Shown here in pieces: positions 15,060-15,609 of a DNA stretch of 64,000 nucleotides. Below the pieces are notes generated by a model, which saw nothing but the letters and a program-made list of their open reading frames with translations, did not search any database and was not told where the DNA came from. The stretch is from positions 11,784,980 to 11,848,979 of the forward strand of contig OZ037771.1 in the NCBI GenBank assembly GCA_964035545.1, read 5' to 3'. The first letter of the stretch is position 1; the number at the start of each line of letters is the position of its first letter. The translations under genes and the position numbers were made by a program. Source of the stretch: Bugula neritina (Eukaryota; Bryozoa; Gymnolaemata; Cheilostomatida; Bugulidae).

Positions 15060-15291
15060 TATATATATATATATATTACGCTCTCATTTAATGCTCAGCA
15101 ATGACATCAAATGATTGAGCACTCTCACCATGGTCACAAACTCAAGCTGCTAGCATTTTGCAATGCTCGTGACTCCTAGGTGACCCCTAGAGTCACTTGA
15201 GCACTCTGGCTTGAGTTTACACACCTTTTAAATATGCTTTAGTAAAACTATAAGTTTTACTATTGCGAAGGTGTGGGCCATGGTACTCTGT

Positions 15292-15338
15292 TCTGTGCTG
15301 ATGAGGGGACAAATCCCGAAACAGCTGCTGTTCACAGA
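15292..15338 (+). ncRNA. Type I hammerhead ribozyme, copy 1
   Basis: Stem I TCTGTG (15,292-15,297) pairs perfectly with CACAGA (15,333-15,338). The core CTGATGA is at 15,298-15,304. Stem II GGGG/TCCC closes an ACAAA loop, followed by GAAA. Stem III is CAG/CTG with a CTG triloop. The cleavage triplet is GTT, which satisfies the NUH rule, with the cut predicted between 15,332 and 15,333. All conserved core positions are present. Confidence 0.85.
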
Positions 15339-15562
15339 TTGAGATATTATGCTCTCATTTAATGCTCAGCAATGACATCAAATGGTTGAGCACTCTCACC
15401 ATGGTCACAAACTCAAGCTGCTAGCATTTTGCAATGCTTGTGACTCCTAGGTGACCCCTAGAGTCACTTGAGCACTCTGGCTTGAGTTTACACACCTTTT
15501 AAATATGCTTTAGTAAAACTATAAGTTTTACTATTGCGAAGGTGTGGGCCATAGTACTCTGT

Positions 15563-15609
15563 TCTGTGCTGATGAGGGGACAAATCCCGAAACAGCTGCT
15601 GTCCACAGA
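15563..15609 (+). ncRNA. Type I hammerhead ribozyme, copy 2
   Basis: Same structure as copy 1 but with the more efficient GTC cleavage triplet; predicted cut between 15,603 and 15,604. Stem I is 6 bp (15,563-15,568 with 15,604-15,609), and the core CTGATGA is at 15,569-15,575. The 3-bp stem III is too short for a stable monomeric fold. Known short-stem-III hammerheads act as dimers, and the CAGCTG palindrome here would allow that pairing. Confidence 0.88.

Follow-up and report, generated by a model that had tools for sequence, protein, structure and literature searches.

A 64,000-nucleotide stretch of chromosome 7 from the bryozoan Bugula neritina (11,784,980-11,848,979; hereafter the window) contains a 271-bp non-coding tandem unit with two hammerhead ribozymes. 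This element is probably a non-autonomous retrozyme that is copied in trans by the enzymes of Penelope-like elements (PLEs) and primed at (TA)n tracts, a reading to which a probability of about 0.7 is assigned. Animal retrozymes without long terminal repeats (LTRs), of roughly 170-400 nt and with circular RNAs, were described in 2020 (PMC7229834, cited throughout from excerpts), and the locus is therefore not the undescribed system proposed in an earlier sequence-only reading. Both the bryozoan representative and its footprint of integration at TA nevertheless look new within the literature searched, which lay mostly outside subscription papers: no bryozoan retrozyme report and no paper joining hammerhead, bryozoa and ribozyme were found, and searches on Penelope, hammerhead and microsatellite or TA returned nothing on TA landing sites for retrozymes.

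Tandem Repeats Finder (TRF) resolves window positions 15073-15610 as a single 271-bp period in 2.0 copies with 98% matches. The insert spans 15073-15609 (537 bp, i.e. two 271-bp turns minus five), and its first copy, which begins at unit position 12 and so is not full-length, starts with ATATTA, which other copies use as their 3' junction. Both units end in a complete type I hammerhead, read directly from the sequence, in which all core bases, three stems (a 6-bp stem I and a stem III of 3 bp plus a closing A-U pair among them) and an NUH cleavage triplet are present. Hammerhead 1 reads TCTGTG, CTGATGA, GGGG-ACAAA-TCCC, GAAA, CAG-CTG-CTG, T, T and, past the cut, CACAGA; hammerhead 2 is the same except for a C at the cut (GTC). 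The GUU triplet of copy 1 is a slower cleavage triplet. The predicted cuts lie exactly 271 nt apart, and the head-to-tail unit, the two hammerheads and the single bracketed monomer of the sequence-only reading all stand by sequence and TRF; release of one 271-nt monomer would be possible in principle, given two complete ribozymes. The last copy is followed by a short tail and then by TA. A second retrozyme in the window also ends in a hammerhead, with the tail CACAGATTGAGATAT, and has TA tracts on both sides (47084-47195 and 47437-47493). The features are as follows.

15056..15072, no strand: 5' flanking TA tract, a remnant of the target (sequence)
15073..15332, plus strand: first retrozyme copy, 260 nt covering unit positions 12-271 (blastn search of the window with the unit, TRF)
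15292..15338, plus strand: type I hammerhead 1, triplet GUU, predicted cut 15332/15333 (sequence, descriptor)
15333..15603, plus strand: second retrozyme copy, a complete 271-nt monomer bracketed by the predicted cuts (sequence, TRF, blastn)
15563..15609, plus strand: type I hammerhead 2, triplet GUC, predicted cut 15603/15604 (sequence, descriptor)
15604..15610, plus strand: 3' tail of the insertion beyond the cut, CACAGAT, where the commonest tail is the longer CACAGATTGAG (sequence, tail table)
15609..15814, no strand: (TA)n microsatellite on the 3' side, the probable target (TRF)
47192..47438, minus strand: another retrozyme of this family, a lone copy with its 5' truncation at unit position 40 (TRF, descriptor, blastn)

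A geometric hammerhead descriptor matched both copies at 15 kb and, as a third match, a site near 47241 on the minus strand; 200 dinucleotide-shuffled versions of the window, scanned on one strand each, gave no match. The predicted fold of the 271-nt circle has an energy of -88.7 kcal/mol, whereas shuffled sequences average -62.8 (z -5.7; 0/200 as low). Its opposite strand folds equally well, at -92.9 kcal/mol, and the fold thus says little about strand.

The ribozyme core has 540 matches in the genome, on both strands and with at most 2 mismatches, whereas the reversed pattern has none. A sample of 88 sequences (47 of 60 automatic loci, after 13 overlapping ones were dropped, 40 fetched loci and the second window copy) contains 96 arrays, of which 68 comprise one unit piece, 21 two, five three and two four, so that 28 of the 96 have at least two. 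These arrays consist of the bare unit only (primer-binding site and polypurine tract were not searched for separately), and 271 bp, too small for a reverse transcriptase or a GIY-YIG endonuclease, encode no protein. A pattern with a different stem II, representing a second canonical hammerhead family, returned five matches in the genome against one in the reversed control; two of the five are plain variants of the retrozyme family, and there is therefore no other large hammerhead family of that form. No match was found to the ribozyme core in viral contigs or to the unit in phage records. Selection on the ribozyme is not claimed from site rates, because the loci were chosen by ribozyme sequence. 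Near one retrozyme copy lies a sulfotransferase-like frame, similar to B. neritina proteins (81% over 60% and 50% over 99%) and to one from Watersipora (46%).

The 3' joint of the family is fixed. In 94 of the 96 arrays the sequence stops just beyond the ribozyme cut with a short tail, commonly 11 nt past it, the exceptions being L057, which has a small inverted piece, and L081, which ends at unit position 191. The tail ahead of the TA tract is CACAGATTGAG in 56 of the 94 and CACAGATTG in 14; the last 24 show 16 further or undefined forms. Within arrays the sequence continues with ATATTACGC; where an array ends, ATAT runs on as (TA)n, and a TA run of at least 20 nt directly follows the tail in 82 of 94. 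Across the genome, 654 matches to ribozyme plus tail compare with 438 to tail into TA and 124 to the unit-to-unit junction, leaving about 92 in neither class, with mismatch limits that differ between the three patterns. Reads crossing from 15,603 to 15,333, put forward in the sequence-only reading as proof of a circle, would not be decisive, since the unit-to-unit junction sequence occurs about 124 times in the genome and linear multimeric transcripts would yield identical reads.

The presence of a tail beyond the cut indicates that the template was not cut at that ribozyme junction. A monomer cut at both ends cannot supply the observed tail, and for this reason circles, not cut monomers, would be needed; the template would be RNA intact across the junction, most simply the circle. 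An uncleaved linear multimer also supplies the tail across the cut, and it readily explains the arrays with mixed units (L041, L059 and L087). PLE enzymes would still act on such a template, and the hammerhead would only trim RNA with no role in transposition. This explanation is judged fairly unlikely. Units within the 27 multi-unit arrays differ at 0.0102 per site compared with 0.0199 after shuffling, an identity above all 2000 shuffles, and nine of the 27 have no differences at all. Of the variants, 20 occur in every covering unit of their array, and 11 of these are absent from all other sampled arrays. At least two cores are present in only 21 of 94 sampled arrays, and therefore most loci cannot act as multimer templates. 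Repeated copying of a single unit is accordingly favoured by these sequence comparisons, not proved.

Some results weigh against copying of a hammerhead-derived circle. Seventy-one variants are not common to the units of their array, and 30 of these occur elsewhere. In vitro, hammerhead mutants of an anole PLE had no effect on insertion, and its authors regarded unprocessed RNA as the main substrate (PMC11167929). Against the hammerhead itself, Rfam found none in the whole window at the gathering threshold, or in 14900-15900 at E up to 10, an outcome that the sequence-only reading had named as refuting; a genome search with RF00008 was also without a match, as were its 14 control genomes. The silence of Rfam is taken here as a limit of the models, because the core bases are complete and the unit recurs hundreds of times, though it still counts against the hammerhead.

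GIY-YIG-type frames adjoin retrozymes at five loci (L017, L023, L029, L062 and L100) and fall into three PLE families, each of which has a hammerhead-like motif downstream of the open reading frame (ORF). The strict descriptor accepts this motif in four of the six copies examined and rejects L023, which by eye has C where U16.1 is needed, and the opposite-strand copy in L017; comparison of L023 with L062 by eye shows a stem II pair changed from T-A to C-G. A 375-aa fragment at L121 combines a YCDD box and a palm-like N-terminus with a C-terminus that matches I-TevI, EndoII and UvrC, and the partner PLE thus appears from its sequence to carry a reverse transcriptase and a GIY-YIG endonuclease in one ORF. 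The PLE frames had no match by Foldseek alone or by Pfam alone, and APOBEC-like rows from Foldseek against PDB were dismissed as chance.

The PLEs land where the retrozymes do. Their tails between cut and TA measure roughly 137, 106 and 47 nt by coordinates, and all 20 fetched 3' ends of PLE1 enter (TA)n. In the genome, the PLE1 tail alone has 100 matches and tail plus TA has 93, with about 92 of the 100 judged by eye to coincide in position between the two lists, and the PLE2 tail plus TA has 115 matches (no count exists for PLE2 tails alone). The retrozyme unit had no homology match to the local PLEs better than E 0.18. Supply of the enzyme by a long interspersed nuclear element (LINE) instead of a PLE is improbable. 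The 2020 paper, in its excerpted text, leaves LINEs open as mobilisers (PMC7229834), and the window has a LINE-type endonuclease remnant (25534-25938, minus strand; Pfam Exo_endo_phos_2, E 0.006, below cut-off). No LINE ending at (TA)n turned up, though no search for one was made, whereas all three PLE families end at (TA)n and carry hammerhead-like motifs.

Other observations concern the PLEs. By eye, PLE1 and the retrozyme both carry the 7-mer AGATTGA close to their 3' ends; PLE3 lacks it. At C9:2729943-2738250 (L023, L103, L115 and L116), PLE1 3' ends recur four times at a spacing of about 2.6-2.7 kb, with a retrozyme after the TA tract in three of the four, a local segmental duplication. 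The PLE1 copy at L062 opens with its own 3' region in inverted form (97%; 1-210 versus 758-966).

The 5' ends of the sampled arrays are, in contrast to the 3' joint, variably truncated and scattered across the unit, although 19 of 94 share a start at position 12, which is exactly one turn away from the 3' joint. Upstream of 60 of 94 arrays lies a TA run of at least 10 nt, compared with about 2% by chance. At the 59 arrays whose 5' joint touches TA, the overlap averages 1.85 nt against 0.74 nt for simulated random breakpoints (0/20,000 resamples as high), and it averages 1.39 nt in the 44 arrays left without the position-12 class. Joining of the 5' end through microhomology has been described for a rotifer PLE (PMC3846280, from excerpts). 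Were the TA tract instead made at insertion, as a slippage-seeded microsatellite tail at otherwise unspecific sites, the 34 of 94 arrays that lack a 10-nt TA run at their 5' side would be accommodated, but the excess of 5' TA in the other 60 and the use of TA microhomology above random breakpoints make this quite improbable. A DNA satellite spread without reverse transcription, by unequal exchange or by reinsertion of DNA circles via TA homology, is consistent with head-to-tail units, TA homology at both ends and the one local duplication of PLE and retrozyme on C9, but is very improbable given hundreds of dispersed short copies on both strands and a strong polarity of fixed 3' and variable 5' ends, as DNA circles are expected to break alike at both ends.

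Copying in trans by PLE enzymes at (TA)n would proceed as follows. Transcripts of arrays with at least two hammerheads would self-cleave to 271-nt monomers, and a host ligase may then close these into circles, as published animal retrozymes suggest. A PLE reverse transcriptase would copy the retrozyme RNA in trans, to judge from the common landing sites and anatomy, with the first strand primed by a broken (TA)n end that pairs with AUAU 12-15 nt past the cut, as the fixed 3' junction suggests. Reverse transcription could cover anything from a fraction of a turn to several turns, and a few bases of microhomology would serve to rejoin the 5' end to the TA tract. Because the AUAU primer site lies directly past stem I, copying of a circle at (TA)n would always rebuild the full 3' ribozyme and, past one turn, create a self-sufficient source of circles; with this layout every insertion, even a short one, would end in a rebuilt ribozyme, and those of more than one turn would be able to release a monomer. 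Whether bryozoan retrozymes are RNA-circle parasites of PLEs, with the ribozyme coupled to the integration site and TA microsatellites serving as common landing pads with at least three PLE families, is evenly balanced.

According to excerpts of PMC7229834 and of a review by one of the same authors (PMC7761336, likewise cited from excerpts), the mobilising enzyme of animal retrozymes and the role of the circle as template are open questions, and the review reports no conserved motif in metazoan retrozymes that reveals the mobilising element. The Bugula genome is a large natural insertion record in which the 3' joint is fixed, the target is defined and a candidate enzyme shares that target, and the question of mobilisation is therefore open to direct biochemical test.

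Elsewhere in the window, a CCCCCTA-rich 30-bp satellite of about 178 copies (47916-53378; TRF) ends near the second retrozyme. Two (TATAAG)n arrays (9745-10119 and 13007-13655; TRF) have similar flanks with like peptides, and near-identical exons on opposite strands (22816-23458, minus; 33668-33898, plus) are presumably methyltransferase-like, to judge from a motif.

The comparison with animal retrozymes and PLEs drawn in the sequence-only reading is right. The Bugula family resembles the non-LTR retrozymes of coral, mussel and axolotl in its type I hammerhead, its short, low-GC, non-coding tandem units (170-400 bp in those animals), its dispersed copies and the co-existing hammerhead-bearing PLEs (PMC7229834), and differs in that most of its copies are single or double, the 3' tail is fixed and insertions land at (TA)n. 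PLE reverse transcription starts internally at AT-rich targets beyond the hammerhead (PMC11167929), and the Poseidon PLE of Anolis shares with the Bugula family AT-rich targets, a fixed 3' tail beyond the hammerhead, an internal start of reverse transcription and tandem and 5'-truncated copies. Its reverse transcription starts at a site without homology to the cut DNA (PMC11167929), whereas the Bugula 3' junction at AUAU matches TA. Unlike PLEs, the Bugula retrozyme encodes no protein, and it has no detectable sequence in common with the local PLEs. The Terminons and Athena PLEs of bdelloid rotifers likewise carry repeats complementary to their target at the RNA 3' end, immediately next to a hammerhead; the repeats are telomeric in rotifers and TA in Bugula, but Terminons are giant and telomeric (review PMC12477314, from excerpts). 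Plant LTR retrozymes share hammerhead-processed circular RNAs as transposition intermediates, but have type III hammerheads, LTRs, a primer-binding site and polypurine tract, 4-bp target-site duplications and Gypsy machinery (PMC7229834, PMC7761336).
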